A stretch of 64,000 nt of DNA, taken from Oscillospiraceae bacterium (GTDB lineage: Bacteria > Bacillota > Clostridia > Oscillospirales > Oscillospiraceae). The translations under genes and the position numbers were made by a program. The notes under the pieces are model-generated. The model was given only the letters and a program-made list of their open reading frames with translations, did no database searches and was not told the DNA's origin. Below, in pieces: positions 1 through 49,135 of the stretch (the first letter of the stretch is position 1; each line of letters begins with the position of its first letter). The stretch spans positions 4,117,279-4,181,278 of the forward strand of contig AP025583.1 in assembly GCA_022846095.1 (NCBI GenBank), read 5' to 3'.

Positions 1-244
1 TCGCTGCAATCGCATCAGAGAACTTCTGCTGAATATCAAGACTCTGCTGGTGCCATTTGGGGTAATTGGCCGCCTGGTCGATGATCTCCTGCACTTGCTT
101 TTCTTTGGCTTCTTCCTTCTTGTACTTCTCGATCAGCTGTTTACGGGCCGTTTTATACAGTTTCCAGATAAAGAAAATGGCCACAAGCACCGTGATGACT
201 GTAGCCACTTTCAAGTCTCCGAAAACTTCCAGAAATTCATCCAT
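1..244 (-). CDS. Membrane protein, probably holin-like (3' end outside window)
   Basis: The reading frame opens with ATG at 244, preceded by an AGGGGAAA ribosome site, and runs off the left edge, so at least 81 residues are visible and the C-terminus is missing. It starts MDEFLEVFGDLK, then has one hydrophobic helix (VATVITVLVAIFFIWKLY, residues about 13-30), followed by a long charged Lys/Glu-rich helix. One membrane segment plus a cytoplasmic coiled tail, last in the tail operon just after an XkdX-like gene, fits the place where Firmicutes phages keep a holin or haemolysin-XhlA-like gene. The role is inferred from position and topology only. Confidence 0.7.
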   Translation of the reverse strand, partial: MDEFLEVFGDLKVATVITVLVAIFFIWKLYKTARKQLIEKYKKEEAKEKQVQEIIDQAANYPKWHQQSLDIQQKFSDAIAA

Positions 245-283
245 TAGATTTCCCCTTTGTCACTAAGGATAAATCGGATGGAA

Positions 284-436
284 TCAGACGGTAGTACCGC
301 CGGCATTCAGCATCCCGATCAGCTCCTGGTATTCGCTCTCCGTGACCTTGCCCACAGCGAAGAAAATATCAATCTTCTCCTCCAGTCCGGCAGTCTGGCC
401 TCGCTCGATCATCCGCTTCAAAGTCCGATACAACAT
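284..436 (-). CDS. XkdX-like small tail-operon protein
   Basis: A 50-residue protein with ATG at 436 and a GGGAGG site 8 bases upstream. It begins MLYRTLKRMIERGQ and carries the pattern of basic N-terminus, Lys-Ile-Asp-Ile-Phe-Phe, then Val-Thr-Glu-Ser-Glu-Tyr-Gln-Glu-Leu, which resembles the XkdX family of short proteins found between tail fibre and holin genes in Bacillus and Clostridia phages. Their biochemical role is unknown. It sits 19 bases from the preceding tail gene and 39 from the membrane gene that follows. Confidence 0.6.
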   Translation of the reverse strand: MLYRTLKRMIERGQTAGLEEKIDIFFAVGKVTESEYQELIGMLNAGGTTV

Positions 437-455
437 GATAAGATCCTCCCTTGTC

Positions 456-800
456 TTAAATATCCAGATCCGTCAGCCCCAGCTCCAGCAGGGTCAGACG
501 AAATTCCTGGTCCACATTCATGGCGTCGGTGTCCACCTGTGCCCGATACAGCGCGCTGTTGCTCCGGTCAATCTCGTTGTCTTTGCCTTTTTGCAGGAAC
601 TCGTCATAGTTGTCCTGTACGTTCTTGACGATGCCATCCCAGGTTTCGACCTCCACATGGTATTCGTCATACTCGAATCCAGTGAACTCCTCCGTCTCAA
701 CGGGCGTCACATTCTGGAAGAGCCGCACAAGGCTCCGCTTGGTCCCCGGGATCTGCTCTACCGTAAAACTGCCCGGATTGACCATCCCCTGAACTTTCAT
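456..800 (-). CDS. Unknown tail/baseplate-operon protein, 114 aa
   Basis: A 114-residue acidic protein that begins 13 bases after the reverse transcriptase gene, with AGGAG before ATG at 800. The N-terminal half is predicted mostly beta (GSFTVEQIPGTKRSLVRLF), with a segment EYDEYHVEVETWDGIV that is Glu/Asp rich, and the C-terminal half is helical. It looks like the short proteins that lie between fibre and XkdX genes in Clostridia siphophages. It is not a convincing Avd, the helical DGR accessory protein, although it occupies a plausible position for one. Confidence 0.6.
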   Translation of the reverse strand: MKVQGMVNPGSFTVEQIPGTKRSLVRLFQNVTPVETEEFTGFEYDEYHVEVETWDGIVKNVQDNYDEFLQKGKDNEIDRSNSALYRAQVDTDAMNVDQEFRLTLLELGLTDLDI

Positions 801-813
801 AGTGCCACTCCTT

Positions 814-1989
814 TCATGCCGCCTGATAAGGCGGATATAATTTCTGAAGTCGCCGGCATTCTCTTCTGACGACTTTCTTCAGATCGAACATTGTCTTCGG
901 TTGGTAATACCGCTTTAATATCCGTTGACTATTGCATTTGCGAAGTTGACCCAATCGGGAGATAAGCCCGGAGGCCCTCTTGAATGAGATGACCCGGTTG
1001 TGGTCCCTTCGATGGTAGTAAATGTGCAGCGCCTGTTTGAGTCGGAACAGGTTGTGCTTTCGGAGGATTGTATATCCATGCCCGAAACGGTAGCCCAATG
1101 CCGACGGAATCCTCGGGCGGCGGTGTCGCTGCTTCTTCTCCGATAACCCTTCATGAGCCTTCGCCACTCTCGGCGTAAAGCCCACCCGGAAGATCTGCCA
1201 GTTATCCTTCAGCTTCATGCCGATCTCGCCCAGCCAAGCCTTGATGTCCTCCAGCAGCTTTCTCAGCTTCCGCTTATTGGAGCCAAAAATAGTGAAGTTG
1301 TCCATCTGCCGCAGGTAGTGGCTCACGCCATATTGCTTTTGGTGGACCATCAGGTCCAGAGGTTGGAGCAGCAGATGAAGGAACCAGGAGGAGAAGAACG
1401 CGCCGATCAGCACGCCGTACTCCATCAGGGCGTCGCAGAGCCATAGGGTTTCCCGGTCTTTGAACAGCCGTTTCAGTGCGTTGATGACATAGGGCGGGTC
1501 TACCTCCACAAAGCAGTGGTGAATATCACACTCCACGCAGTATTGGGTGCCCACCGGATCGTTCTTCATCCAGTTCTTCAGCGCCTTCACGCCGTAGGAG
1601 TTACCCCGCCCGGGTACGCTTGCGATGCAATACTTGTCCATGCTCCGCTTGATGTGCGGGATCATGGGCTGCACCACCGCATGGTGGACATACTGGTCCG
1701 GCCATAGCAGCGGTTCGTTGATCTCTCGCCATTTCCCCTTGCCGCTGTCCGCGTTCCGGTCCCATTTCCGCCGTTGCAGCGGTTTGTGCATGTGCTCGTC
1801 CCCGGTCACCAGGTCCTCGATGAACTTGCGGAGTTTCACCACATATTCATCCACATGCGCCTCGATTTCCAGGACTTTCTTATTCAAACTGTGGTCGCCG
1901 TTTCTCCGGTGACCGCGATTGACTTCCTGGATAGCCAGGCGCAGGTTTTCATCGGAGATGATTTGTTGGTAAATTCTAACTCGTTTCAT
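814..1989 (-). CDS. DGR reverse transcriptase with QMDN in place of YxDD
   Basis: A 391-residue reverse transcriptase that would copy the template repeat RNA and drive adenine mutagenesis of the variable repeat. An upstream TTG-initiated extension exists, but the ATG at 1989 has AAGGAGG 13 bases upstream, so I chose it. Seen in order: a fingers segment (KWREINEPLLWPDQYVHH), motif A with the metal-binding Asp near residue 155 (VECDIHHCF), an IGAFFSS motif that matches the IGxxxS hallmark of DGR enzymes rather than the QGxxxSP of group II introns, then QMDN at residues 228-231 where YxDD is expected, and a thumb rich in Arg/Lys. The replaced second Asp is unusual; the adenine-only changes in the nearby repeat show this lineage was active. 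No Avd gene is adjacent. Confidence 0.93.
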   Translation of the reverse strand: MKRVRIYQQIISDENLRLAIQEVNRGHRRNGDHSLNKKVLEIEAHVDEYVVKLRKFIEDLVTGDEHMHKPLQRRKWDRNADSGKGKWREINEPLLWPDQYVHHAVVQPMIPHIKRSMDKYCIASVPGRGNSYGVKALKNWMKNDPVGTQYCVECDIHHCFVEVDPPYVINALKRLFKDRETLWLCDALMEYGVLIGAFFSSWFLHLLLQPLDLMVHQKQYGVSHYLRQMDNFTIFGSNKRKLRKLLEDIKAWLGEIGMKLKDNWQIFRVGFTPRVAKAHEGLSEKKQRHRRPRIPSALGYRFGHGYTILRKHNLFRLKQALHIYYHRRDHNRVISFKRASGLISRLGQLRKCNSQRILKRYYQPKTMFDLKKVVRRECRRLQKLYPPYQAA

Positions 1990-2189
1990 CAGGGATAGTT
2001 TTCCTCCTTGTAGCCTCACAACTGTTCCATCGCCGCGGGTGGTTCCAAGGCGAGACTTGGCCCGAAGTGTACTAAGCTGTGTCCTGACGGCTTATCTTCA
2101 GCAAGTGCTGCGCGGTCAACGATGCGTAATAGAAAGGGTGAGGAACCCTGACTACCAAATGGAGGGTTAGCCTATGGCTTAGCAAGGAT

Positions 2190-2329
2190 GCGACAGCCGA
2201 TGTTGGTGTTCTGGTTCGACGCGTTGTTGTAGTTAATGTAGAAAGGCCCGTGATTCTGGTTCTGGTTATAGTTACCGCCATGGTGCAGGCACGGGTTACT
2301 ACCGTTGAAATTCCAGTTATCCGGGACAT
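2190..2329 (-). repeat. DGR template repeat (TR)
   Basis: 140 bp aligned without gaps to the variable repeat at 2515-2654 (constant offset of 325). On the coding (minus) strand I count 22 mismatches and every one is at a template adenine, out of 43 adenines; no C, G or T position differs. The template would encode an Asn-rich peptide, the usual sign of AAY codons that mutate to many residues. It lies between target gene and reverse transcriptase, the classical DGR order. Confidence 0.95.
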
Positions 2330-2420
2330 CGTCTGCTGCAAAGTTGACCCCGCGCTTTCCCCTTACCAAAGGAAAAGCGGTTTATCAGAGTGATTTCACT
2401 CCATTTTGAATTTTGATAAG

Positions 2421-2474
2421 GCGGAGCTTGGGGGAAGGGCCTGCGGGCCCCTCACCCCAAACCCCCTCCTCCGC
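2421..2474 (-). terminator. GC-rich inverted repeat between TR and target gene
   Basis: Nested inverted repeats: GCGGAG (2421-2426) with CTCCGC (2469-2474), TTGGGG (2428-2433) with CCCCAA (2455-2460), and GGGCC/GGCCC around a TGCG loop (2437-2450). On the minus strand a stable hairpin would form just after the target gene's stop. It is followed by few U residues, so it could be a terminator, an RNA-processing boundary for TR RNA, or a structural DGR element. Confidence 0.5.
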
Positions 2475-2484
2475 AGGGGAGTGG

Positions 2485-5223
2485 TCACGCCGCCTTCGGC
2501 GGGCGTTCCTGGAGGCGACAGCCGACGTTGGCGCTCTGGCCCGACGCGCTGACGCAGTTAATGCAGAAAGGCCCGTGACCCCGGTACTGGCCATAGTAAC
2601 CGCCATGGAGCAGGCACGGGCTACCACCGTTGAAAACCCAGTTATCCGGGACATACGTTGTGGTACTTCCTGCGGCCGCACACGGGAACAGCGCCCACTC
2701 CAGACCATCTTGTGTCGGGATGGTGAAGTCAGACGGATAACCACCCACCGGCTTACCGACGAGTACGCCATTGGCACTGTCGCTGAACTGGTTGGGATTC
2801 TTGATGACATTCAGGCCATTATTGTTATAGTAACAGCCATCCAGCCAATCATAGACATTGTCCCACCAGCCCTCGACGTTCCGGTACTGGGTAAAGCCAT
2901 AGCTGTTTCGGTTGGCCGCCGTGGTGCCGGTATGATACTGCATGGCATCCGTCCGGCCGTTGTTCTCCTTGGAACCGCTTGCGGAACAGCCTCTGCCGAT
3001 CCGCTCACCGTTCCAATCGGCAAACTCCACGAGGAACAGCATGCCGATGTACCAGAACTGAGCGAAGTCGATCTGCCAGATGTAGGAGCCCAGATTGTGG
3101 ATACCGCTCCGGGCCGTGCTTCGGGTGATGTTCACCTTCTGCGCCACATTGGTGGAGGACTTGTAATCGCTGCCGCAGTGGTAGCGGCCGATGTAGGAGA
3201 AGTCCAGTTCGCCAAGGCCGTCGCCCCGGTCCATATTCACCGGGTCCACATGGAACCCCTCAACAGGGCCGTCCGCGATCTGGAGTTTCAGCTTCTTGCC
3301 CGTCTTGGTCCACTTGTACCAATACTTGGGCTCCTTGACCATCACGCCGCCAGAACGAGTTTCCTTCACCATCCCATTCCAGGGATAAAGGTTGTCGAAG
3401 GGAGAGGAGCCGGAGCCGTTGTTCACCGCCGGATTGGGGTCGCCAAACCCGGCCGCGCCGTCCGTGCGAGTACCCTTGGTAGAGCCGCCGGAAGTCCAGT
3501 CCCATTCCACGCCATAAATGGTCACGAACTGAGCTTTAACCTGAACAGACTTGTCGGCGCCGGCCAGATAGTTGGTGCCCTCGGCCACCTTGACCGTGAT
3601 GACAGCCGTGCCCGTAGTGTCGTTCACGCTGTTCACCGTTACCTCGCCGGTGGTCTGGTTGATGTTGCCGACGGTAGCCACGCCGGTGTTGTTGGAGGTA
3701 GCGGTAATGACACCGTTGCCATTTCGGGTCACTGTGAATTTGGCGCTCCGGGCGCTGGTGTTCAGCGTCACGCTTGCCGGACTCACGGATACCACCTGGT
3801 CACCCTTGCCGATGGCCCAGGTCGCAGTCTTGGCCTCGATGGAGCCGTCCCACCACTGATAGTTGGCCGTCGGGGTGAAGGAGGCGGTGTAGCCGGTGCC
3901 GGCGTTGACCTTCGCCTCCACCGACACGGTCATCTTGTTGCTGTCGTAATTGGTGTCCCAGGACGGGGTCTTGGGATTGCCGTCATACTTCAGCGAGCCG
4001 CTCTGGGCGGGGACAGCGGGGATAGACGCCCGGCCGATGGTCCAGTTCACCGTCTTCTTACCCGTGGTGCCGTCCGACCACATGCCGTTCAGCAGGGTAA
4101 AGGTGGCGGTGTGGGTTCCCGCATTGGTCTGAGCCGTCACCGATACCGAGGAGTTCTCCTGGTCAAAGTTGTCCCATTCCGGCGTCTGGGCCGCCCCATT
4201 GTAGGTGAGGGAGCCCTTCTGTGTCGGGATGGGCACGATGACGCTGGTGATCGTCCACTGGACCTCCTTGGCCTCCGTTGTCCCGTCCCACCACTGGTAG
4301 TTGGACTTGGGGGTGAAGGTGGCGGTGTAATTGCCCGCGTCGGTTCCGACCCGGTCGCCCCCAATGGTCATCTTCTCCACATCATAGCCATCCCAGATGG
4401 GCGTCTGCGGCGTGCCGTTGGCCGCCAGCACATTGCTCTGGGTGGGAAGAGAGGCGATGGTCGCTCTGCCGATAGACCACTCGGCGTCGGCTTCGTCCGT
4501 ACCATTGGGGAACTCATAGCCATATACCAGTGTGAAATGGGCGGTGTAGCTGCCCGCGTTGATGCCGTTGGTTTCCCCGCTGATGGACATTTTCACCGAG
4601 TCGTACCCGGTCCAGGCAGGCGTCTTGTTTGTCCCGTCATAGGTGATTACTACATTTTGAACGGGGACAGCCACCTGAACAGGATTGACCATCACATTCA
4701 GGCTGGTGGTCTTGGTCACGCCCTCATAGGCATAGCCGATTTCCACCGCCTGCTCGCCCAGCGTGGAGAACGCGGTATCGGGATAGGTATATCCGTCCAC
4801 GACCTGGGTAGACTCATCCGAGAAAGTAGCGGTGACTACCATCCCGGCCGGAGCAAACTGCTCCAGATAGTTGTAGGTCATTTTGTCGGGGTTGGTGGTG
4901 ACGGCAATGGATACCAGCACCTTCTCCACCGTGACGGAGACCATAGCCGTCTTGGTGACGCGGCCCTCGGTATAGGTGATGGTCACCTCCGTGACCCCGT
5001 CCGTCAAAGTCTGAGGCGACACGGAGTATCCGGTCACATCCGAAGTGAGACCATAACCATAGCCCGCGGTAACGATCATGCCCGTGGGGTCAAAGGCCTC
5101 TCCGGACTTATAGACCGTCTTGTTGGGCTGTTTGGTGATGGTCAGGGTCTCCAGCTTCAGAGAGCCGCCTCCGCCGTTGCCGCCGGTCATGTTAAAGACC
5201 TTGCCGACGTTAGCATTACTCAT
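2485..5223 (-). CDS. DGR target: Ig-like tail/receptor-binding protein with C-type-lectin-type variable end
   Basis: A 912-residue protein. ATG at 5223 is preferred over an upstream TTG because the GGAGG site lies 12 bases before it and it overlaps the preceding stop as ATGA. Residues about 20-200 hold bacterial Ig-like repeats (SGEAFDPTGMIVTAGYG; LEQFAPAGMVVTATFSD). About 200-500 hold four to five beta repeats of the type KTPSWDTNYDS...NAGTGYTASFTP, and near 510-570 is a further Ig-like domain. The last 300 residues, with YWYKWT, FWYIGMLFLVEF and a C-terminal GCRL, resemble the FGE-sulfatase/C-type-lectin fold that displays DGR-varied residues. Seventeen residues of the last 60 differ from the template translation. 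It probably forms the variable tail tip that contacts the host surface. Confidence 0.9.
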   Translation of the reverse strand: MSNANVGKVFNMTGGNGGGGSLKLETLTITKQPNKTVYKSGEAFDPTGMIVTAGYGYGLTSDVTGYSVSPQTLTDGVTEVTITYTEGRVTKTAMVSVTVEKVLVSIAVTTNPDKMTYNYLEQFAPAGMVVTATFSDESTQVVDGYTYPDTAFSTLGEQAVEIGYAYEGVTKTTSLNVMVNPVQVAVPVQNVVITYDGTNKTPAWTGYDSVKMSISGETNGINAGSYTAHFTLVYGYEFPNGTDEADAEWSIGRATIASLPTQSNVLAANGTPQTPIWDGYDVEKMTIGGDRVGTDAGNYTATFTPKSNYQWWDGTTEAKEVQWTITSVIVPIPTQKGSLTYNGAAQTPEWDNFDQENSSVSVTAQTNAGTHTATFTLLNGMWSDGTTGKKTVNWTIGRASIPAVPAQSGSLKYDGNPKTPSWDTNYDSNKMTVSVEAKVNAGTGYTASFTPTANYQWWDGSIEAKTATWAIGKGDQVVSVSPASVTLNTSARSAKFTVTRNGNGVITATSNNTGVATVGNINQTTGEVTVNSVNDTTGTAVITVKVAEGTNYLAGADKSVQVKAQFVTIYGVEWDWTSGGSTKGTRTDGAAGFGDPNPAVNNGSGSSPFDNLYPWNGMVKETRSGGVMVKEPKYWYKWTKTGKKLKLQIADGPVEGFHVDPVNMDRGDGLGELDFSYIGRYHCGSDYKSSTNVAQKVNITRSTARSGIHNLGSYIWQIDFAQFWYIGMLFLVEFADWNGERIGRGCSASGSKENNGRTDAMQYHTGTTAANRNSYGFTQYRNVEGWWDNVYDWLDGCYYNNNGLNVIKNPNQFSDSANGVLVGKPVGGYPSDFTIPTQDGLEWALFPCAAAGSTTTYVPDNWVFNGGSPCLLHGGYYGQYRGHGPFCINCVSASGQSANVGCRLQERPPKAA
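2487..2506 (-). promoter_or_regulatory. DGR target-site hairpin downstream of the variable repeat
   Basis: An inverted repeat ACGCCGCC / GGCGGgCGT with a three-base loop (GAA on the coding strand) and one bulged base. It starts 9 bases beyond the 3' end of the variable repeat and overlaps the end of the target gene. In the Bordetella phage BPP-1 DGR a hairpin with an 8-bp stem and GAAA loop at this location is needed for efficient retrohoming; position, stem length and loop here agree. The function is inferred by analogy. Confidence 0.6.
2515..2654 (-). repeat. DGR variable repeat (VR)
   Basis: Copy of the template repeat inside the 3' end of the target gene. The invariant 3' end on the coding strand (TCGGCTGTCGC, + strand 2515-2525) is the likely initiation of mutagenic homology. 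Differences from the template produce changes such as Asn to Val, Gly, Ser, Tyr, Tyr to Cys and Gln to Arg, while VPDN, HGG, HGPF and GCR are kept. Confidence 0.95.
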
Positions 5224-5605
5224 TGCTCTGCTCAACCTCCAGTCGCAAAATATAAATGGTCAGATCCTCCACCGGAGTGACCTCACAGTGGAACGTGACC
5301 TGACCGTCAACGGTGATATTGTCGGCTTTCACGCCGGTTTCGCTCGCCGCCATAAAGCAGTCCGCGTCGGCGCACACAATATACCAGTAGTTTCCGTCAG
5401 CTAAGAGGGACTCGTCCTGCACAGTCTGAGCTCTGCCGCTCCAGTTCTCGGCCGGCAGAGTAACGGTGATACCGGTATGCTGTGCGCTCTCCAGCAGAGG
5501 GGTGATAATCTCCAAAAGCTTGTCGATACGATTTAGGGTATCGAGCTTCCCCTTTTCTGCCAAAGCTTGCAGCTGCCCAAGAGTTGTAACTTTCTTCTCT
5601 GCCAT
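5216..5605 (-). CDS. Baseplate/fibre accessory protein, 129 aa
   Basis: The N-terminus TLGQLQALAEKGKLDTLNRI is helical and similar in style to that of the neighbouring 5672-6616 product. The C-terminal 80 residues (from AENWSGRAQTVQ to YILRLEVEQ) form a predicted beta domain that resembles the C-terminus of the 7206-8513 fibre (ASGWKDGSITIADSRLL ... LTVNLIRFEL), so the two proteins share a module. It overlaps the DGR target start by 8 bases, which suggests translational coupling. Likely a small structural tail-tip component; function not known. Confidence 0.7.
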   Translation of the reverse strand: MAEKKVTTLGQLQALAEKGKLDTLNRIDKLLEIITPLLESAQHTGITVTLPAENWSGRAQTVQDESLLADGNYWYIVCADADCFMAASETGVKADNITVDGQVTFHCEVTPVEDLTIYILRLEVEQSNE

Positions 5606-5620
5606 GTCAGAGCTCCTTTC

Positions 5621-5662
5621 AGGAAAAGTAAGAGGGGGACAGGATCACCCCATCCCCCTCTT
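5621..5662 (-). terminator. Rho-independent terminator
   Basis: AAGAGGGGGA (5630-5639) pairs with TCCCCCTCTT (5653-5662); on the minus strand the hairpin is followed by ACTTTTCC. It lies between two tail genes and would reduce expression of the DGR target relative to upstream genes. Confidence 0.65.
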
Positions 5663-5671
5663 CGCGGTTAC

Positions 5672-6616
5672 TCAGGCAGTCTCCTGACCGTTCTCCGTGG
5701 TGCCGAAGACCTCGTTCAGCATGGCAGTCACCTCGGTATCGAGCGCGACCTCCATGCCGTCCAGCTTGGTCTTGTCCTCCTTGGACATCAGGCCGTTCGC
5801 CTCGGTGGTGGCAGGCTGATAGGTGGTATCCTGAGCGGGGATGCCCAGAGCCACGATGTCCTGCTTGGTCACGTCGGCGCCCAGCACCACATGGCCCTTG
5901 TCGTCGTTGCCGACCTTCTTAAAGCCGGCCGCAACAGCGGTAGTAGTGGGGTGGGTGTAGACAGTGGTCTCCTCACCATCGATCTTGATGTTGCCGTTGA
6001 TCTCAGAGGCCTCGACCTTGGTGGCGCCGGCGGAGATGCTCTCCATGGCGGCGGCGATCTTGCCCTCGATGGCGGCCATCACGGTGGCGTAGTCGTCATC
6101 CTCACCGCCGATGCCGGCAACGATGCCGTTGAGCTTGGCGATGGCGGTGTTCATGGCGGCGGCGTCATCGGGGTGGTCCTGAATCCACTGGGCGATCTCA
6201 GTCAGAGTGTCCAGGGACTCCTGCGCGCCCTCGGGGATCAGCTGGGCAGCCAGCTCCTCGTTGGCGATGGTGCGGACGCTCTTGCCGGTGTCGGTGCCGA
6301 TCAGGGTGTCCACATCCGCCTTGGCGGCCTTGGCGGCCAGAACAGCCGTCAGGGCGGCGTCCAGGTCAGACTCAGAAACCTGAGCCTTGTAGGCCAGGGC
6401 AGCCAGACCCTTCACCGCCACGTCGGTGCCATTGACGGACAGGGTGCCGTTGGTGGCGCCGGTGCCGATCAGGATGTCAACCATCTTGTCGGCGATGGCC
6501 AGGGCAGTGCCGTTGACCTTGATGCCCACCAGAGACTTAGACTCGACAGCGTCGATCTCGGTCTTGGTGCGCTGGGCCAGCATCTTCAGCTGGTCAAGAG
6601 TGGTGTGCTTAGACAT
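5672..6616 (-). CDS. Tail fibre/baseplate protein, 314 aa
   Basis: ATG at 6616 is preferred to that at 6622 because AGGGGG lies 8 bases upstream. The sequence is rich in Ala, Asp, Thr and Lys with regular helices, then GNIKIDGEETTVYTHP and HVVLGADVTKQDI, typical of short phage fibre repeats. The end MLNEVFGTTENG resembles the LDDAF / LDAVFGD repeats of the next protein upstream. It lacks Cys. A structural role at the tail tip is inferred from composition and position between two fibre genes. Confidence 0.7.
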   Translation of the reverse strand: MSKHTTLDQLKMLAQRTKTEIDAVESKSLVGIKVNGTALAIADKMVDILIGTGATNGTLSVNGTDVAVKGLAALAYKAQVSESDLDAALTAVLAAKAAKADVDTLIGTDTGKSVRTIANEELAAQLIPEGAQESLDTLTEIAQWIQDHPDDAAAMNTAIAKLNGIVAGIGGEDDDYATVMAAIEGKIAAAMESISAGATKVEASEINGNIKIDGEETTVYTHPTTTAVAAGFKKVGNDDKGHVVLGADVTKQDIVALGIPAQDTTYQPATTEANGLMSKEDKTKLDGMEVALDTEVTAMLNEVFGTTENGQETA

Positions 6617-6643
6617 ATACATGTCCCCCTTAAAAATATTTGT

Positions 6644-7192
6644 TTACGGCTCGTCGCCGAAAACAGCATCCAGAATGTCCTCCACCTCTTCGTCGGTGGC
6701 GGTATTGTCCGGACTCTCCGGATCGTCTTCAGGATCATCGGGCGGAGTCCACTCAGACTGGAATGCGTCGTCAAGCGCCTCCTGGACCTCTTCGTCGGTG
6801 GCGGTGTTTTCCTTGATGATCTCCAGGATCTGCGCCGTCACATCCCCGCCGATGTAGGAGGGCGGGATCAGCTGCTTGGGGTCGACCCCATACATAATCC
6901 GGCCGGTCAGACACCAGACGGTATCCTTTTGCTCCGCCCCCTTGACCCCGGTGACGCCGATCTTGAGATTGACGCCGCCTTTCTTCAGGCATTCGGCCGG
7001 GATGATACACCGGTCATCCGTAAGCTCCACAGGAGGCTGCTGCACGCCGCCGGCGTCGAAGATAGCCGACTTTGTGTAGCCGTCCCAGCTCTCGTCAAAG
7101 TGGAACTCCACAATGTAGATTTTTTCGGAGTTCTCCACCAGACTGTCATCTTTCAGCATATGGGCATAGGTTGCTTTCACTGCGATTTCCAC
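6644..7192 (-). CDS. Baseplate protein with duplicated acidic C-terminal motif
   Basis: A 182-residue protein. Residues 1-130 form a beta-rich domain with IYIVEFHFDESWDGYTKSA and WCLTGRIMYGVDPKQLIPP, a type seen in baseplate upper/wedge-like proteins of Clostridia siphophages. The C-terminal 60 residues are very acidic and contain TATDEEVQEALDDAF and TATDEEVEDILDAVF, an internal duplication separated by a Pro/Asp/Glu-rich linker. The next gene begins 28 bases downstream. The repeats may be docking sites for fibre subunits, which is inference. Confidence 0.65.
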   Translation of the reverse strand: MEIAVKATYAHMLKDDSLVENSEKIYIVEFHFDESWDGYTKSAIFDAGGVQQPPVELTDDRCIIPAECLKKGGVNLKIGVTGVKGAEQKDTVWCLTGRIMYGVDPKQLIPPSYIGGDVTAQILEIIKENTATDEEVQEALDDAFQSEWTPPDDPEDDPESPDNTATDEEVEDILDAVFGDEP

Positions 7193-7205
7193 GGGTTACA
7201 CCTCC

Positions 7206-8513
7206 TCACTGAATAGCCCCGTTGCCAGACAGCTCAAATCGAATGAGATTGACCGTCAGATCCATGGTCGGGTCGCTATCATTGGTAAAAGTAATGAAGC
7301 CCGTCGTGGTGATGTCCTTCGGCTGCACATTACAGTCGATGAACTCTTCCTTACAGGCTTCATCCGCGCTGAGAAAATATTTGTGTGTCGCCAGAGCCAG
7401 CAGACGGCTGTCCGCAATGGTGATGGAACCGTCCTTCCAGCCGGATGCCGGAATGACCAGGTCAAAGGAGACCCCCAGCACATCACCAGCGCCCGTACCA
7501 TTCAGGCCGTTGTAAACCGAGATGGTATAGGAGGAGCCGTCCGTCAGCAGAACGGTGTAAATATCCGTGGTGCCCGGAGAGTGGTCGCCGCTGGTCAGCT
7601 GAATGTCGTCGATGCCGATGCCGATGGGACCGGGCAGCTCACAGCTGATGTGGGTATCGTAATACTCGCCGGTATCGGCATTCCAGATCCACCAGGTTCC
7701 ATTTTGAGGCATGGGCGGTTTCCCGCTGTACTGCTCCGCTTTGGCGGCGCTGTCGGCGGCGTTACTGGCGCTCTCTTCTGCATCGGTCTTAGCCTGTTCC
7801 GCGGCCTCCTTGGCTTTTTCGGCGTCCTCCTTGTCCTGGGCGACAGTAAGGGCGTCCTCTTCGGCGCTCTCCTTGGCGGCCAGAGCGTCGTCCTTCGCCG
7901 TCTCTGCGGCAGTCTTGGACTCCAGCGCAGAGGTCTCCGAAGCCTTGGCATTGGTCTCGCTGAGCTTGGCGGCGTCCCGGGCGGTTTCCGCGGCTTTCTT
8001 GGCGTCCTGGGCCGTTTGAGCATCCTTGGTCGCCTGAGCGCCCAAAGTCTCGACCTGACCTTTGATGGTCTTGGTCCGCTCCTCGGCAGCCTTTGCCTCC
8101 GCTTCGCTCTGTTCCGCGGCATTCTTGGCCTCCTCGGCCTCCCGCGACTCCTGAAGCGCGACTTTCTCAGAGTTGGCCGCATTGGTCTCCGACTCCTTGG
8201 CCCGGTTAGCCGCGTCGATGGCATTGTCGGAGTATTCCTTTGCCTTGGTTTCGGATGCCTTGGAATTCGTCTCCGATGTAGACGCTTTTCCCGCGGAATC
8301 CAGGGCCTCCGCAGCCTTTTTCGTGGCTGTCTCAGCTTCGCTCTTGGCTTTTTCCGCGGAGGCGGCGGCAGAGTCCTTGGCCGTAGCCGCAAACTCCATA
8401 GCGCTGGAGGACTCCTGATTCATGGCAGCCAGAGCGTCGTGGATGGAGCCACGCACCTCCTCGCCATAAATCGCCTCCATGATTTTCTTTAGAAAACTGC
8501 TGATATCGGCCAA
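7206..8513 (-). CDS. Coiled-coil tail fibre
   Basis: 435 residues, TTG start at 8513 with GGGGTGA upstream. The N-terminal 35 residues (FLKKIMEAIYGEEVRGSIHD) are an attachment helix common to baseplate-bound fibres of gut Firmicutes phages. Residues about 40-270 are an almost uninterrupted Ala/Glu/Lys/Ser coiled coil with ETNSKASETKA-like heptads, expected to form a trimeric shaft. A Pro-rich break (GKPPMPQNGTWWIW) leads to a beta-structured head, whose last 80 residues resemble the 5216-5605 protein. Likely a side fibre for host adhesion. Confidence 0.8.
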   Translation of the reverse strand: MADISSFLKKIMEAIYGEEVRGSIHDALAAMNQESSSAMEFAATAKDSAAASAEKAKSEAETATKKAAEALDSAGKASTSETNSKASETKAKEYSDNAIDAANRAKESETNAANSEKVALQESREAEEAKNAAEQSEAEAKAAEERTKTIKGQVETLGAQATKDAQTAQDAKKAAETARDAAKLSETNAKASETSALESKTAAETAKDDALAAKESAEEDALTVAQDKEDAEKAKEAAEQAKTDAEESASNAADSAAKAEQYSGKPPMPQNGTWWIWNADTGEYYDTHISCELPGPIGIGIDDIQLTSGDHSPGTTDIYTVLLTDGSSYTISVYNGLNGTGAGDVLGVSFDLVIPASGWKDGSITIADSRLLALATHKYFLSADEACKEEFIDCNVQPKDITTTGFITFTNDSDPTMDLTVNLIRFELSGNGAIQ

Positions 8514-8906: not shown

Positions 8907-11204
8907 TCATTCTCCTGTTCCTAAATCCAGACCTCTCACGTTTGCATCGCTGAAATCAACTTCACCCCTGAAATAAATAATGCCCATGCGGTCGCCAAAC
9001 TCGATATAAGCTCCACACGGGCTGTAAATATTAACATAGGGGGCATCTCCCTCGAAATACTCGATGGCCAGCATGTGATACCGGCTATTCCCAAAAGGCC
9101 CATATAAGTTAAAGCTCCCAAAGTCGCTCCCGGCGATAATGTTGAACTCCTCACCATAGAACTGCCCGCCTTCGATAACGGGGGAGCGAATGGTGGTGGA
9201 GTCGATATAGGTCGACTTGATATAACCGGGCATTTCGATCGAGTTGGCCAGTTTATAGGCCCGGTCCGCCCGGTCATAGGCCGTTTCCGCTTCCCACATG
9301 GCGTCATCCGCCAGATTATAGGCGTCATTCGCCATCGAATAGGCCGGGTTGTAAGCCAGATTGGTGTTGCCCACATTGGCCCAGTTGATGGTGCTTCCGG
9401 CGCCCATAGTGATCTGACCGTTGATGGTGATGCGCCCAGTAGAACTGACCGCGAAGGTGATTTCCCCGGTGCTCCGGTTAGTGATGGTGATGCCGTAGAG
9501 GTCCAGATAGTCAGAGGCAAATTTGCTGCCATTCATCATACTGTTGCCGTTGCGGTCCAGGAAGTCCTCAGCCTGTACCACGCCCTTGAAGTCTCCGGTA
9601 GCCGCCACCAGCTGACCGCCAAAGGTCCCCTTGGCGCCGGACAGAGTACCCGAAAAGGTGCCTCGCCTGGCATAGAGGTTGCCTTGCTCATCCACGGTGA
9701 AGTTGCCGTTTCCGATGTCGATAGAGCCCTTCTTCATGGTCAGCGTGCCGGTTGCCATGTCCAGAGAGAAATTCCCGCTGATGTCCTTCAGCATGCCCGC
9801 CCGAATAATGTCGGCATTGAGCACGCCCGTGTTGACATAGTCGGCCACGATGGAGCCGTCCATGGTAATGGCCAGTCCGAAGGTCTTTCCGCCGTCATTG
9901 GAGTACCCCAGGCCGTTCATGTTCCACTTCCAGAGCTTATCGGCCTTGGTGTAGTCCCGAACATTGGAAATATACAGCGTTTCCGAGCCATACTCGTCCT
10001 GAGTGATGGTGATGTAGCCCGTGGTGGCCATCTTCATGATCTCGGTGGCGTTCTCCTTGGCCTCCTTGAGGATGGAGTGGGCCTTAGGAAGATTTTCGAT
10101 CTTCTCCAGTACCGCGGCATTGGTCTGGTTGCTGACGCTGGTGAGGCTGACCTGCACCGAATCTCCCATTTTGAACTGGGTGTTCTCCGGGTGGTCCAGC
10201 GGAATCTCCAGCTTGGTCACTGGGAACAGGCGGTCCAGACCGTGGGGGCGGGAGATGACCCGGATCTCGTCCAGCAGCTTGACCGCCTCGGTGTTCACAT
10301 CCAGATAGTGCAGGTCCAGGGCGCTCAGTTCCAGCTCCAGATTGTCGAACTGGAGATCGGCCAGATACTCTTTGGCCTTTTCCAACAGCGCCGCCGGGTC
10401 GCTCACATCGTCCCAGGTCACCGTCTTGACGATCCAGCCGTAGTTTTTGACCGCCTCGTCAGACTGAACGTAGAGGCTCCCGTTATTCACGCTCTCCACC
10501 GTCAAATAGGCATCCAGCGCCTCGATGGGGCTCTCGTCCAGCCGATTGCCCAGGGGCACGATGGCCGTGGCATACTCGGTGGAGTCCCAATTCCTGGTGA
10601 AGTCAATGAGATTGGAGCCAAACTGGATAACCTGACTGCAAGTGTCGGGGTACTCCTTCAGATAATCCAAATACCGTACCCCGTCCACCTTCCGAACCCG
10701 GAGATGGCCGCCATAGGTCTCCACCAGGGCGTTGAGCAGCTCCATGGTCTTCTCATAGTTGGTGTAGTAGGTGGGGAAGTTTTCATCCACCACTGTCACT
10801 GCGCCAAGAGCAAACTGCCGGTTGGCGCCAACCTTGGCATTGTGGACGGAGATCAGATGTTCCAGATACTCCCGGACAGACTTTCCCGCATACTCCGCCG
10901 GAGGCTGCACCGAGTCGTTGAAGTAGGCCAGCTCCCCCTCGCAGTAGAGCACCCGGTTGTTCCAGAAGTCCTTACTTTCTGAGAGCACACGCCCAGACCA
11001 AATCTCTTCTCCATGCTTTTTCACGGAGATCTCCGTGACCATACGGACAATGGTGTCATAAGCCTTGTTGGTGTGGGGAAGTGACATCTCCAGAGAGCCG
11101 GCCGCGCTGTCCTCCAGCGTCAGCTTGGGGGTCACGACCTTCATATCGTCCAGCGAGAACACATCGTTGTAGATGCACACGCCATCCGCATAAATGCTAT
11201 ACAT
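8907..11204 (-). CDS. Tail-associated protein (Tal-like, prophage tail protein)
   Basis: 765 residues; ATG at 11204 with GGAGG 9 bases upstream. The N-terminal 370 residues (SIYADGVCIYNDVF ... IWSGRVLSESKDFWNN ... GGHLRVRKVDGVRYLDYL) match the gp27-like hub domain of Tal proteins in siphophages. The second half repeats short beta segments (GSIDIGNGNFTVDEQGNLYARRG) and ends in a domain with YFEGDAPYVNIYSPCGAYIEFG. It follows Dit directly, the canonical order, and forms the distal tail opening. No clear peptidase or lysozyme motif was recognised in the C-terminus. Confidence 0.88.
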   Translation of the reverse strand: MYSIYADGVCIYNDVFSLDDMKVVTPKLTLEDSAAGSLEMSLPHTNKAYDTIVRMVTEISVKKHGEEIWSGRVLSESKDFWNNRVLYCEGELAYFNDSVQPPAEYAGKSVREYLEHLISVHNAKVGANRQFALGAVTVVDENFPTYYTNYEKTMELLNALVETYGGHLRVRKVDGVRYLDYLKEYPDTCSQVIQFGSNLIDFTRNWDSTEYATAIVPLGNRLDESPIEALDAYLTVESVNNGSLYVQSDEAVKNYGWIVKTVTWDDVSDPAALLEKAKEYLADLQFDNLELELSALDLHYLDVNTEAVKLLDEIRVISRPHGLDRLFPVTKLEIPLDHPENTQFKMGDSVQVSLTSVSNQTNAAVLEKIENLPKAHSILKEAKENATEIMKMATTGYITITQDEYGSETLYISNVRDYTKADKLWKWNMNGLGYSNDGGKTFGLAITMDGSIVADYVNTGVLNADIIRAGMLKDISGNFSLDMATGTLTMKKGSIDIGNGNFTVDEQGNLYARRGTFSGTLSGAKGTFGGQLVAATGDFKGVVQAEDFLDRNGNSMMNGSKFASDYLDLYGITITNRSTGEITFAVSSTGRITINGQITMGAGSTINWANVGNTNLAYNPAYSMANDAYNLADDAMWEAETAYDRADRAYKLANSIEMPGYIKSTYIDSTTIRSPVIEGGQFYGEEFNIIAGSDFGSFNLYGPFGNSRYHMLAIEYFEGDAPYVNIYSPCGAYIEFGDRMGIIYFRGEVDFSDANVRGLDLGTGE

Positions 11205-36741: not shown

Positions 36742-39462
36742 TTACTCATTGAGATACTTGGAAACAACAGAAGATGAAAGGTTCAAAGCATCGGCGATCT
36801 CGGCATTAGTGCAGCCAGAGTTTGCCATCGCCTTGATCCGGTTGATGCGAGCTTCAGACAGTTGCGTCGATGCTCTTGGAGTTGCACGGGCGCGAACAAC
36901 ATCAGGATCGGCATAGCGAAGGATCTCTTTCAAAGTTGTGTCAGAGATCGCGCCAGCCTGAATTGCTTCCCATTCGCCATCAGAGATTGTAATTCGTGTT
37001 CCTTTTCCGCTTGCGCCAGTAGCAACATGAGCATCGCTGATTGCGGCACGACGAATCTTAGAGATCTCGTCTTTGTCGGTGACATTGTTGGCCTGAATCT
37101 TTGCCTTTACCTGGGCATTGGCGATACGCTGAGCCTCACGTTCACGAGGGGCGTTAAGCTGAGCCGTCTTCAGGGCGCTGGTCAGTCTGGTAACTTCAGG
37201 AGCATAAGCCTTTGCTGCACTTGCATTGCGCACCAAAGTAGGCGTCGCCAAGTATTCCAGTCTCGCACGATTGGCGAGCGCCTTCATACGGTTAGCGTAA
37301 TCAGCATAAGCGTCCTCCTGAACAGTACCGGAAGACAGGGTTCGGATGTCGTCGGTCTTCTCCAAAAGTTTGATTTGCGTTGTGGCAGGAACGGTTTTCC
37401 CAGTCTTCGGGTCTACATAGGTTCGACCAGATTCCTTGTAGATGACCTTACCTGTCTCCCTGTCGATACGACCGCTACCCTGACGCTCCGGAACAGAAAC
37501 ATTCTGCTTTCTCCGAGAGAGCAGAGTAGAGGCCCCACCCACTTCCTTACCAGTTTCAGGATCTATGTAGCCCTGCCACCGTTTCCGAAGGGTGGGGATG
37601 TCGTTCTCGATCTCAGACCGCTTGTAGTCCAGCTTGTGCTTGGCCGCGTCGATAACGACCATGCTATGCTTGACAGCCTTAGTGATTTCTTCCTCGGGGG
37701 CTCCTTTTAAGGTCATATCCGTGATCAGGTTGGAGATCTTACCCATCTCTATCTGGGTGGCTGCTTTTGAGAGGAGCCGGACGCCGGTCTTCCCCTCGGT
37801 GGAGTATTCGACTTTTGGGTCGAAGTCCTTCAAACCATCCAGGGCGGGGGTGGATTTTACCGATACCTTCCCGCCCACAGGGATGACAACTACCTGGTCG
37901 CCGTCAAAGTCAGCCCCGGAGAGCCGCTCCGCCACCTTTGGATTGATACCGACGGCGTCACGGATGTTCTTGCCTAGAATCGAGATCGCTGACTGATTTT
38001 TGTTGTTGACTGTCAACTCAGGGATCTCAAAAGTACCCCCATGGGGGTAGCGAATCAAGACGACCTTCTCTCCATTCCGATAGTTAGGGGCATAGATCTC
38101 CGTCTCCTTCATTTTTGTGATGGGGAGGATCACTTGCGTACTCTGCCGGGGGAGAGCGGCCGCTTTCAGGTGAACAACAGCGGAATCGCACTCGTCCGCA
38201 AAGTCCATCAGCAATTTCCGCTTGATGGTGGGGTTATTCAGGGAGCGGATCTCGTCGAATTCATCAGCGGCATCGGCGTAAGTCAGGTCAAGCTGCTTCT
38301 GAATCAGCTTGATAGGCTGCTTGGAAAGAAACTGGGAGGACAGGTTCTTACTCATTTTGTCCCAGTCCCCCTCCTCCTTCAGCTTGTTGATAGCTGACAG
38401 AGATTTCTTCTCTCCAGTGATGGGGTCCGTGTACTTGCCATTGGGGTCGGGGTAGTAGCTCTGACCATTGGCCTTGATGAACGCGCCGAAAGGATTATCA
38501 GGATCGTCCTGAATCTTCTTCATAACATCCATCTTTGGCGTGCCCGAATGCTTGTTCGTGTTGAACACGATGTCGGCGCCATCCGGCATGTCGTCAGAGT
38601 ACATGGCCATGCCTTTCAGATAGTGGGTTCCATCTACAAGGATACGAACCTGGGCATAGTGGGAACCCCCCAAATCGAGGTCGGCCACACCACGGCGAAG
38701 TTCGATGACGCCATCCTTAGAGGTGCCACCTTCATCACCATAACGGATCTTCACCCGGCTGGAGTCAATGCTGGCCGGATACTCCCGTTTATCCCAGGAT
38801 GCACCCCCATCGGCAGAGTGATAGTCGCCGACCGACTTGATGATGTCTAAGTTCTGGTAGGCGTCACGCTGCTCAATGTCGGGCACGGAGATAACGGGAG
38901 TGATGGTTCGCTTCTTCGGATCGTTCACCTGGGGGACGCCAACGCCATAGCGGTTGTAGCCCTCAGTTTCCAGAATGAACAATGCTTCCTGGAGCACGCC
39001 TTTGGAAACGCCGAGCTGCTGCTCCACGCCCTCGCCCACGTCAAGAGCACCTTTGACCGCCAACTCCTTCTTTAGAGCCTCAGCGGTGGCAAGGGCCTTG
39101 TTCTTATTACTGGCTGTATTCTCGTTGAGCAGGGCACGGACAGAGGAGTCATTGTTGTAACCCATGATCTTGGCGATCTCGTCCAGCGTTTTTCCCTCTT
39201 CCCGAAGGGACTTGGCTCGCTCAGCCTGCAAGGCACGCCGCTCATGTTTCGCCACGCGAACCTGCATGCGGAGGTCAGTGGTGGACATCTTCAGTTCCTC
39301 GGCAATTTCCTTTTGAGATTTACCGAGCGCTTCAAGCTCCTCCACACGGGCCAGGAAGTCTCCGCCGTGTTGGTAAGGGTTCTCGCCAGAACCCCAGGGG
39401 TAGCGCCCAGAGCGCCTCTTGACGCCATAGTGCATCAAAATATCGTCCACAATGGGGTCCAT
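36742..39462 (-). CDS. Two-barrel RNA polymerase-like protein (DFDGD), YonO/crAss type
   Basis: 906 residues with AGGAGG upstream of ATG 39462. The sequence AERLSGADFDGDQVVVIPV places DFDGD at residues 518-522, the metal-binding loop of multisubunit RNA polymerase beta-prime and of phage one-chain relatives (YonO, crAss-like virion polymerase). Upstream, VVLIRYPHGGTFEIPELTV and GKNIRDAVGINPKVAER fit the pre-loop barrel; downstream, KAATQIEMGKISNLITDMTL and AKHKLDYKR also fit. Helix-turn-helix segments flank the core: KSQKEIAEELKMSTTDLRMQ, KTLDEIAKIMGY, and C-terminal CTNAEIADALNLSSSVVSKY. The start (DDILMHYGVKRRSGRYPWGS) resembles the tag of head proteins. It may transcribe a gene class or enter the cell with DNA. 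Confidence 0.82.
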   Translation of the reverse strand: MDPIVDDILMHYGVKRRSGRYPWGSGENPYQHGGDFLARVEELEALGKSQKEIAEELKMSTTDLRMQVRVAKHERRALQAERAKSLREEGKTLDEIAKIMGYNNDSSVRALLNENTASNKNKALATAEALKKELAVKGALDVGEGVEQQLGVSKGVLQEALFILETEGYNRYGVGVPQVNDPKKRTITPVISVPDIEQRDAYQNLDIIKSVGDYHSADGGASWDKREYPASIDSSRVKIRYGDEGGTSKDGVIELRRGVADLDLGGSHYAQVRILVDGTHYLKGMAMYSDDMPDGADIVFNTNKHSGTPKMDVMKKIQDDPDNPFGAFIKANGQSYYPDPNGKYTDPITGEKKSLSAINKLKEEGDWDKMSKNLSSQFLSKQPIKLIQKQLDLTYADAADEFDEIRSLNNPTIKRKLLMDFADECDSAVVHLKAAALPRQSTQVILPITKMKETEIYAPNYRNGEKVVLIRYPHGGTFEIPELTVNNKNQSAISILGKNIRDAVGINPKVAERLSGADFDGDQVVVIPVGGKVSVKSTPALDGLKDFDPKVEYSTEGKTGVRLLSKAATQIEMGKISNLITDMTLKGAPEEEITKAVKHSMVVIDAAKHKLDYKRSEIENDIPTLRKRWQGYIDPETGKEVGGASTLLSRRKQNVSVPERQGSGRIDRETGKVIYKESGRTYVDPKTGKTVPATTQIKLLEKTDDIRTLSSGTVQEDAYADYANRMKALANRARLEYLATPTLVRNASAAKAYAPEVTRLTSALKTAQLNAPREREAQRIANAQVKAKIQANNVTDKDEISKIRRAAISDAHVATGASGKGTRITISDGEWEAIQAGAISDTTLKEILRYADPDVVRARATPRASTQLSEARINRIKAMANSGCTNAEIADALNLSSSVVSKYLNE

Positions 39463-47693: not shown

Positions 47694-48896
47694 TTAATCA
47701 GAGGCTTTGAAGTTGTAGACGGGGCGGATGCGTTCTACAATGATTGCAGTAGGCCCGATTTGGGAAACGATCTCTTCTATGCTCTTGTAGGCCATCGGAG
47801 ATTCATCAAGAGTGTCGGGAACTACGCAAGTCGTGTAGATGCCCTTCATTTCATTTTGGAACTCTTCCATAGATAGGGTGTTGAGCGCTGCTCGACGGCT
47901 CATGAGGCGTCCGGCTCCGTGCGGAGCAGAGCAGTTCCACTCCTCATTCCCTGTGCCAATACAGATCAAGCTGCCGTCCCGCATGTTGATTGGGATAAGC
48001 AGTTTTTCTCCCTTTTTGGCAGACACGGAGCCTTTCCGGAGAATCATGGCGTCCGTATCAATGTAGTTATGGATAGTGGTGAAAATATCCACCGCAGTAA
48101 GGCCCATACCTTCCAGGATGACGTCCACCATAGCTTTCCGATTGAGCACCGCAAACTGCTGCGTCAACTTCATATCGTGGATGTAGTCGTCGAACAGCTT
48201 GCCCTCCACATAGGCGAGGTCTTTTGGAATATCCAGTTCATGCTCCTTCTTCAGAGCCGTGATAGTTTTCTGGATTTCCTGAAACCGCCCCTCGGCTTTG
48301 AGCTTTGCAATGGTCTCCTGAATCTGATGCTTGGCCCCACCCCAAAGTGCCCGGCGTCCCTCATTCTGATAGTAATCGGCCACTTCTGTTCCAAGGTGCC
48401 GGCTCCCGGAGTGAACGACTAGGAATAGCCGTCCGTCCCCGGCTTGGTCCACCTCAATAAAGTGGTTGCCGCCACCCAAAGAGCCAATGCTGTGAACCGC
48501 TCTGTCAAGGTTGACTTGGTCGGCGCATCGAAGCTGAGTTAAGTCAATTTCTGAATTGAGGGAATGGGGAATATCACGGATTTCCCGGCCGAAGGGGATC
48601 TTCTCCCGGATCAGCGCGTCCAGCTTAGCAAAGTTGATTTCACGCTCGGCCAGTTCCACCGTCTCCATGCCACAACCAATGTCCACGCCTACCATACCGG
48701 GAACGATTTTGTCCTGGATAGTCATGGTGGTGCCGATGGTACAGCCCTTTCCGGCGTGCACATCGGGCATAATGCGGATTTTACAGCCCGAAAACTCGGG
48801 CCGGTCACATACTGCCTGAATCTGCTCCCGAGCCGCTCCTTCCAGCTCATTGGTGTAGCAGACAGCAATGTTGTATTGCCCTTGAATGGTTATCAC
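47694..48896 (-). CDS. rtcB: RtcB-type RNA ligase
   Basis: 400 residues, GTG start with AAAGGAG upstream. DVHAGKGCTIGTTM, VGVDIGCGMETVEL, SLGGGNHFIEVDQAGDGRLF, VVHSGSRHLGTEVADYYQ and CSAPHGAGRLMSRRAAL are the RtcB core, with the metal-binding Cys in GCGM and His residues in NHFIEV and SGSRHLG. The enzyme joins 2',3'-cyclic-phosphate or 3'-phosphate RNA to 5'-OH ends with GTP and Mn. In a phage it may repair tRNA cut by host anticodon nucleases. It is its own unit with a terminator. Confidence 0.93.
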   Translation of the reverse strand: MITIQGQYNIAVCYTNELEGAAREQIQAVCDRPEFSGCKIRIMPDVHAGKGCTIGTTMTIQDKIVPGMVGVDIGCGMETVELAEREINFAKLDALIREKIPFGREIRDIPHSLNSEIDLTQLRCADQVNLDRAVHSIGSLGGGNHFIEVDQAGDGRLFLVVHSGSRHLGTEVADYYQNEGRRALWGGAKHQIQETIAKLKAEGRFQEIQKTITALKKEHELDIPKDLAYVEGKLFDDYIHDMKLTQQFAVLNRKAMVDVILEGMGLTAVDIFTTIHNYIDTDAMILRKGSVSAKKGEKLLIPINMRDGSLICIGTGNEEWNCSAPHGAGRLMSRRAALNTLSMEEFQNEMKGIYTTCVVPDTLDESPMAYKSIEEIVSQIGPTAIIVERIRPVYNFKASD

Positions 48897-48925: not shown

Positions 48926-49135
48926 CTATTCCATGATTTCAATAGACTGGATATCAGTTTCATTGAGTCCAGTCCATTCCCCAGGTTTTGGGCAGTTATA
49001 GACATTGATACCAGAAACCCCTTCCGGCTCGTTGTCCTCTGGGAAAATGTAATCCTCGACAACGCCGGTCAGAACTTCATTGTCTGTGGTGACGATTCGT
49101 ACTTGTTTCCCTTCGAGTGAGCGTTCAAGTTTCAT
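48926..49135 (-). CDS. Sm-like small protein, 69 aa
   Basis: ATG at 49135 with AAAGGAG upstream. LEGKQVRIVTTDNEVLTGVV then EDYIFPEDNEPEGVSGINVY is the Sm-fold layout (GK-V---T---E-L-G-V). This small protein type is common in Firmicutes genomes and phages. RNA binding is possible but not shown. Confidence 0.65.
   Translation of the reverse strand: MKLERSLEGKQVRIVTTDNEVLTGVVEDYIFPEDNEPEGVSGINVYNCPKPGEWTGLNETDIQSIEIME

Follow-up and report, generated by a model that had tools for sequence, protein, structure and literature searches.

The diversity-generating retroelement (DGR) of Bordetella phage BPP-1 (RT, bRT; target, Mtd; structures 8ub7 and 1yu0-1yu4) is arranged in the order of the target gene with its variable repeat (VR), the template repeat (TR), and the reverse transcriptase (RT) gene. 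The VR is at the 3' end of the gene for a C-type-lectin-fold tail protein, and only adenines are changed. BPP-1 also has Avd, and its RT carries the motifs YMDD and SQ. For errors of bRT at A, C 59.3%, G 26.4%, and A 14.3% are reported in E. coli, and A 43%, C 34.5%, and G 22.5% in vitro (PMC12875486). The DGRs of Lactobacillus phage LBR48 and Faecalibacterium phage Epona are also close to the locus described here, as all belong to Firmicutes phages without a match to PF22296, the profile of bAvd; LBR48 shares the RT-18 RNA as well.

A survey of 155 DGR RTs reports 100% conservation of both YxDD aspartates (PMC3521204), and SQ together with Y(V/M)DD is reported for 57 of 62 DGR RTs (PMC4244168). 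Retroviral RTs are described as dependent on the second Asp of YxDD (PMC554778). The same paper describes Asn at this position in the C. elegans retrotransposons Cer7-Cer12 (YVDN) and calls their activity an open question. Cer7-Cer12 are LTR retrotransposons, not DGRs, and are likened to the RT in this study by motif description alone. Below, DN and DD designate RTs with Asn or Asp, respectively, as the second residue of the catalytic pair.

Organization of the DGR Locus

The window, the whole stretch of DNA analysed, comprises 64,000 nucleotides and corresponds to positions 4117279-4181278 of the complete 4.31 Mb genome (one contig) of an Oscillospiraceae bacterium. The coding order on the minus strand is the tail protein gene with the VR at its end, the TR, the RT-18 RNA, and the RT gene, similar to the order in BPP-1 (Table 1). 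Genes for portal, terminase, head protease, major tail protein, and endolysin are on the same strand, and a gene for prophage tail endopeptidase is at 8907-11204. Because of these genes, the region looks like a prophage. Three other minus-strand genes of the window were recorded: a 906-aa protein at 36742-39462 in this DNA prophage, nearly the full length of which matches the "RNA-dependent RNA polymerase" family phrog_4291 (1201 bits); a phage-borne RtcB-type tRNA splicing ligase at 47694-48896 (phrog_1075); and a DUF5662 protein with a C-terminal Ntox50 toxin domain at 49125-50060.

Table 1. Features of the DGR locus, in positions of the window.
Feature	Position	Strand	Evidence or remark
Small acidic protein adjoining RT	456..800	-	Conserved in 15 loci
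DGR-type RT, 391 aa	814..1989	-	RVT_1 E 1e-7; phrog_1423 E 2.4e-50
RT catalytic motif, domain 5, RQMDN, residues 227-231	1297..1311	-	Asn231 in place of second Asp of YxDD
RT domain-4 motif IGAFFSSW, residues 195-202	1384..1407	-	SS where DGR RTs usually have SQ
RT-18 structured RNA (RF03021)	2004..2110	-	70.1 bits vs gathering score 41.3, E 2.8e-11
TR 3' end, IMH*-like	2186..2199	-	A where VR end has C
TR	2190..2329	-	140 bp, 43 adenines
Target gene, 916-aa tail protein	2485..5235	-	phrog_5302 tail, E 1.2e-32, residues 628-915
Candidate target hairpin (short inverted repeat after VR)	2490..2502	.	5-bp stem, 3-nt GAA loop on coding strand
Predicted C-type-lectin-fold variable-protein domain containing VR	2500..3378	-	AlphaFold and structure matches
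VR 3' end, IMH-like	2511..2524	-	Repeat alignment
VR	2515..2654	-	22 changes, all at TR adenines

The TR and the VR are the longest repeat family that a repeat finder detected in positions 1-8000 of the window, and they are the only matches of the TR in the 4.31 Mb genome. They align without gaps on the minus strand with an offset of 325. Among the 140 columns there are 22 mismatches, all at TR adenines (hypergeometric P = 4e-14) and none at other bases; 17 are A>G, 5 are A>T, and none is A>C. Thus, the gapless 140-bp pair with changes at 22 of 43 template adenines, counted by hand in the first-pass annotation, was reproduced by program alignment. Its figure of 17 altered target residues is also exact inside the VR; a codon comparison gives 18, the first of which, D861Y, sits in a codon straddling the VR edge. 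The locus is confirmed as a DGR with adenine-directed change, and as a DGR it is ordinary.

The repeat continues for 4 bases past the 140-bp pair (2186-2189 and 2511-2514), with one difference, A in the TR and C in the VR. The same difference at the repeat end is observed in 10 of the 11 relatives examined. In 9 of the 11, the TR ends with CGCATCC and the VR with CGCCTCC; L005 has the equivalent difference further inside, and L002, whose RT is the nearest relative found (93% identical), deviates. Similar differences between TR and VR ends (IMH/IMH*-like) are present at other DGR loci examined. In sequence, it looks like a fixed difference of the IMH/IMH* type.

The RT-18 RNA, a direct match to Rfam RF03021, was found in 18 of the 20 relatives searched, always directly upstream of the RT gene. 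These are 15 DN loci, two DD loci (L058 and L087), and L057, whose RT is too short to class as DN or DD. Of the two relatives without it, L066 carries RT-17, and the contig of L003 has almost no upstream sequence. Since RT-18 is also found beside DD RTs, it is not specific to the DN RTs. The candidate hairpin after the VR is shorter than the published DGR target hairpin, which is described with a 7-10 bp stem and a GRNA loop, 4-34 bp after the VR (PMC3240598). Stems of at least 6 bp after the VR were observed at 37 of 60 DN loci and 93 of 132 DD loci, and in 8/162 and 25/351 background windows.

The small acidic protein adjoining the RT was considered as Avd and rejected, as Avd is a basic protein. 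The search with PF22296 found no bAvd gene in this genome and none in 32 records (27 DN and 5 DD, many of them fragments). Therefore, the "complete" DGR of the first-pass annotation is supported for VR, TR, and RT, to which the RT-18 RNA is added, but bAvd, present in BPP-1, was not found in this genome. PF22296 also misses a protein annotated as Avd in Bacteroides phage jmh72_hp, and thus a record without a match is no proof of absence. In two sets of DD comparison records, 10 of 15 and 2 of 18 were positive and 5 of 15 and 16 of 18 were without a match; Avd loss was therefore rejected as a trait of the DN RTs. PF05635 has one match in this genome, about 270 kb away. Avd-like proteins are reported to accompany 62% of DGR RTs in complete genomes, by which DGRs without Avd are not rare (PMC8934634).

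Target Tail Protein

The last 350 residues of the target were modelled by AlphaFold with a pLDDT of 95.1. The best structural matches of this C-terminal model were DGR variable proteins: TaqVP (5vf4_A; Z 23.3, rmsd 2.9 over 249 residues), TvpA (Z 13.8), and Mtd (Z 13.0-13.6, the highest for 1yu1). The model places the VR at the 3' end of the target gene, within the predicted C-terminal C-type-lectin-fold domain, as in BPP-1. The first-pass annotation placed the changes at the end of an Ig-like tail protein. The end of a tail protein holds, but the VR is outside the Ig-like part; the only Pfam match in the target is Big_3 at residues 36-101, with 20.5 bits, just below the cut-off of 21.2. In tentaclin, as described (PMC10743442), the C-lectin domain is N-terminal and Ig-like domains come after it. 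The layout is different here, with the C-lectin domain at the C-terminus.

A Clade of RTs with Asn for the Second Catalytic Asp

The frame of the RT extends over 814-2019. The start common to relatives is ATG at 1989, and GTG at 2019 is an alternative. bRT was the best PDB match of the RT by sequence, Foldseek, and VIA-align. The AlphaFold model (pLDDT 92.4) has the fold of bRT (8ub7_A; Z 30.9, rmsd 2.3 over 319 residues). Unlike bRT, the RT has QMDN instead of the canonical YxDD in domain 5 and IGAFFSS instead of (I/V/L)GxxxSQ in domain 4; the first-pass annotation was silent on both departures. The dN/dS values against five relatives are 0.05-0.11, indicating that the RT is under strong purifying selection.

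RTs were collected from five IMG/VR scans, one scan of genome contigs, and seven phage records; the sampling is query-driven and not a census. The relatives from IMG/VR are 65 loci. Of 261 RTs, 10 that did not reach 250 aa were removed, and identical proteins were reduced to one each, which left 211 distinct RTs for the tree. The catalytic pair is DN in 66 of them, DD in 145, and of another kind in none. The 66 DN RTs form one clade with a support of 1.0; without the motif columns, the support is 0.999. A sixth scan, some contigs of which overlap the earlier scans, yielded 29 RTs, 27 with RYMDD and two outside the motif pattern. Asn is encoded by AAC in 42 and by AAT in 35 of the 77 DN loci, and it is thus no single sequencing error. 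An adenine-biased TR/VR pair is present at 63 of these 77 loci.

Positions separating DN and DD RTs include N231, T233, A297, E92, W96, and R345. Two residues are lost from the DN clade. One is the Lys at position 153, two residues ahead of the motif-A Asp, which is kept in 141 of 145 DD RTs; the other is Pro194 beside the motif-4 Ile, which is present in 138 of the 145 DD RTs. Leu194, Glu153, and Thr233 are partners of the Asn in the DN RT. The SQ motif is seen in 53 of 66 DN RTs and 139 of 145 DD RTs. The tree and alignment indicate that DN has a single origin and that some 20 other clade-specific positions change with it. In a sublineage consisting of L002-L014, L068, and the RT of this prophage, the catalytic Tyr is also lost (Gln in 12 of 66 DN RTs), and SQ is replaced by SA or SS. 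The literature search, which covered open-licence papers, turned up neither a DGR RT with DN nor a loss of A>C across a clade, and nothing relevant on RT-18; prior notice is possible.

Mutation Spectrum at DN and DD Loci

TR/VR pairs were kept when at least 80% of their mismatches were at A. Adenine specificity is thus partly by construction, while the A>C share is not. No pair was obtained from 14 of 77 DN loci and 28 of 174 DD loci; some of these, such as L003 and L016, lie on contigs that stop close to the RT. Each distinct pair entered the counts a single time, without its final 8 bases. In 60 distinct DN pairs, TR adenines correspond to G 617 times, T 291 times, and C 25 times, and 1194 are kept as A. 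In 132 DD pairs, the counts are G 913, T 541, C 397, and kept A 1393. A>C therefore accounts for 25/933 (2.7%; bootstrap 1.6-3.9%) of changed adenines in DN and 397/1851 (21.5%; 19.1-23.8%) in DD. The DD figure, unlike the DN figure, is close to the G share of 22-26% among bRT errors at A (PMC12875486). The changed share of TR adenines is 44% in DN and 57% in DD.

The deficit is widespread in the DN clade. The lineage of this prophage shows 184 G, 69 T, and 1 C in 14 pairs, and the remaining DN loci show 433 G, 222 T, and 24 C in 46 pairs, so that A>C is not zero in DN. The C share of DD groups is 19-30%; the RTs of the LBR48 type (RNIDD) and the Epona type (RYMDD), both DD, show 30% and 25%. 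Among nested clades with at least 8 paired tips, 15 DN clades show at most 4.8% C and 32 DD clades at least 16.7%. Loci with at least 8 changes and no C are 41 of 59 in DN and 9 of 128 in DD (Mann-Whitney P = 5e-21, related loci not being independent). Among pairs free of non-A mismatches, A>C is 2.99% in DN and 21.8% in DD. Trimming of 8, 15, 25, or 40 end bases leaves it at 2.6-2.7% and 21.4-21.5%, respectively, and the view that A>C in DD stems from fixed repeat-end differences was thus rejected.

For G insertion before C (NAC sites), template slippage is proposed for bRT (PMC12875486). In DN, A>C is rare before A, C, G, and T alike. A deficit confined to one sequence context was therefore rejected, and loss of slippage alone would not explain the DN spectrum. 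As a separate observation, TR adenines before T or G are rarely changed in DN; 86% and 78% are kept as A, compared with 48.5% and 50% in DD. This could be due to selection or to RT context.

The spectrum is read from VRs already past selection, and 62 of the 77 DN loci have one target family, for which selection could be shared. The deficit of A>C could thus come from selection on the target protein or from codon make-up rather than from the RT. The counts by codon position make this unlikely. A>C at positions 1, 2, and 3 is 15/436, 9/436, and 1/46 in DN and 169/953, 206/774, and 19/109 in DD (Fisher P = 2e-15, 3e-33, and 0.008; one pair without a clear frame is left out). The deficit at all three positions also speaks against a codon or position artefact. 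Furthermore, DD loci whose targets are distantly related to this family show C at 27/114 changes (7 distinct pairs from 11 such loci), and the per-adenine rates of the other two changes are similar: A>G is 29% in DN and 28% in DD, and A>T is 14% in DN and 17% in DD, against 1.2% and 12% for A>C.

It is less probable still that the spectrum reflects the hosts, through dNTP pools or mismatch repair, and not the enzyme. The 14 loci that come from named genome records and were classed as DN include 12 with Clostridia-type names, which would allow a shared host effect. Against this, DD loci related to the Epona RT show C at 52/210 changed adenines (18 pairs; the host is known for Epona alone), and the nearest DD relatives, L058, L060, and L066, show C at 2/12, 2/14, and 7/18.

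Mutation of either aspartate is reported to inactivate retroviral RTs (PMC554778), and RVT_1 matches, of unclassified types, number 2-10 in each of eight bacterial genomes that carry a DN-side locus. Even so, it is very improbable that the DN RTs are dead and that an ordinary DD DGR RT elsewhere diversifies the VR in trans, because such an RT would be expected to produce A>C and the dN/dS of the RT is low. Moreover, this genome has only one other RVT_1 gene, whose length is that of a group II intron RT, and the 12 DN virus records, possibly partial, show exactly one RVT_1 match apiece. A second RT is excluded only for this genome and, within these possibly partial records, for the 12 viruses.

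Variation among Sister Phages

The relatives L007, L009, and L010 have identical RT DNA (0/1173 differences), identical TRs, and identical 450-bp upstream sequences. Any two of their VRs nevertheless differ at 15-22 positions, with TR adenines accounting for 15-21. In 3729 aligned bp of L007-L010, 44 columns are variable, 35 of them within the 144-bp VR, and 33 of these 35 are at TR adenines. The bases at the 33 columns are A 63, G 54, T 15, and C 0. When longer stretches are compared, an ungapped count, which an indel would inflate, gives 421 differences between L007 and L009 and 418 between L007 and L010; thus, only the 3.7-kb block is near-identical.

As near-identical sister blocks vary mainly in the VR at template adenines, the DGR lineage is active, with recent VR diversification in L007-L010. 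The first-pass annotation described an active or recently active element, to be checked by whether variants in relatives concentrate at template adenines. They do so in these relatives, whose RTs are about 83% identical to that of this prophage; the activity is thus demonstrated for the relatives, not for this prophage itself. At another relative, L027, a second repeat pair with 5 mismatches, 4 of them at A, was observed at 3838-4161. It is possibly a second VR or a duplicated domain.

Discussion

In our reading, the DN RTs are active enzymes whose error spectrum has become narrower. With a probability of roughly 80%, this locus is a functional phage DGR whose RT belongs to a clade of its own and still works with Asn for the second catalytic Asp and the accompanying clade-specific positions. 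The RT would copy a transcript of the TR and the RT-18 RNA. Opposite template A, it would often insert C or A instead of T, leading to A>G and A>T in the VR, and almost never G, so that A>C would be nearly absent. The mutated cDNA would then replace the VR, presumably by integration. The changed VR would alter the end of the C-type-lectin-fold domain and probably the surface bound by the phage.

DGR lectin domains bind ligands in known cases. Because the target is also a tail protein in a tail gene region, diversification of the tail protein likely alters host recognition; the host-receptor binding proposed in the first-pass annotation is inferred from the tail context and the fold.

The DN clade seems to have lost dG misinsertion and kept the other two kinds. 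A remodelled active site is the simplest reading of this loss. Among the many co-changing positions, the substitution of Asn for Asp is the most striking candidate for its cause. It is left as a candidate because DN arose once, with many partner changes. We moderately favour a wider reading, in which the whole DGR RT clade works with Asn at this position and has a remodelled active site that shuts out dGTP opposite template A. Such RTs would follow a second mutational code, with A>G/T in place of A>N and a different range of amino acids within reach.

If this is true, the DN RTs would offer a mutator with a narrower, predictable spectrum for protein-diversification work. A natural, apparently active DN clade with an altered error spectrum makes it testable whether Asn supports reverse transcription, and which residues set the insertion of DGR RTs opposite adenine.
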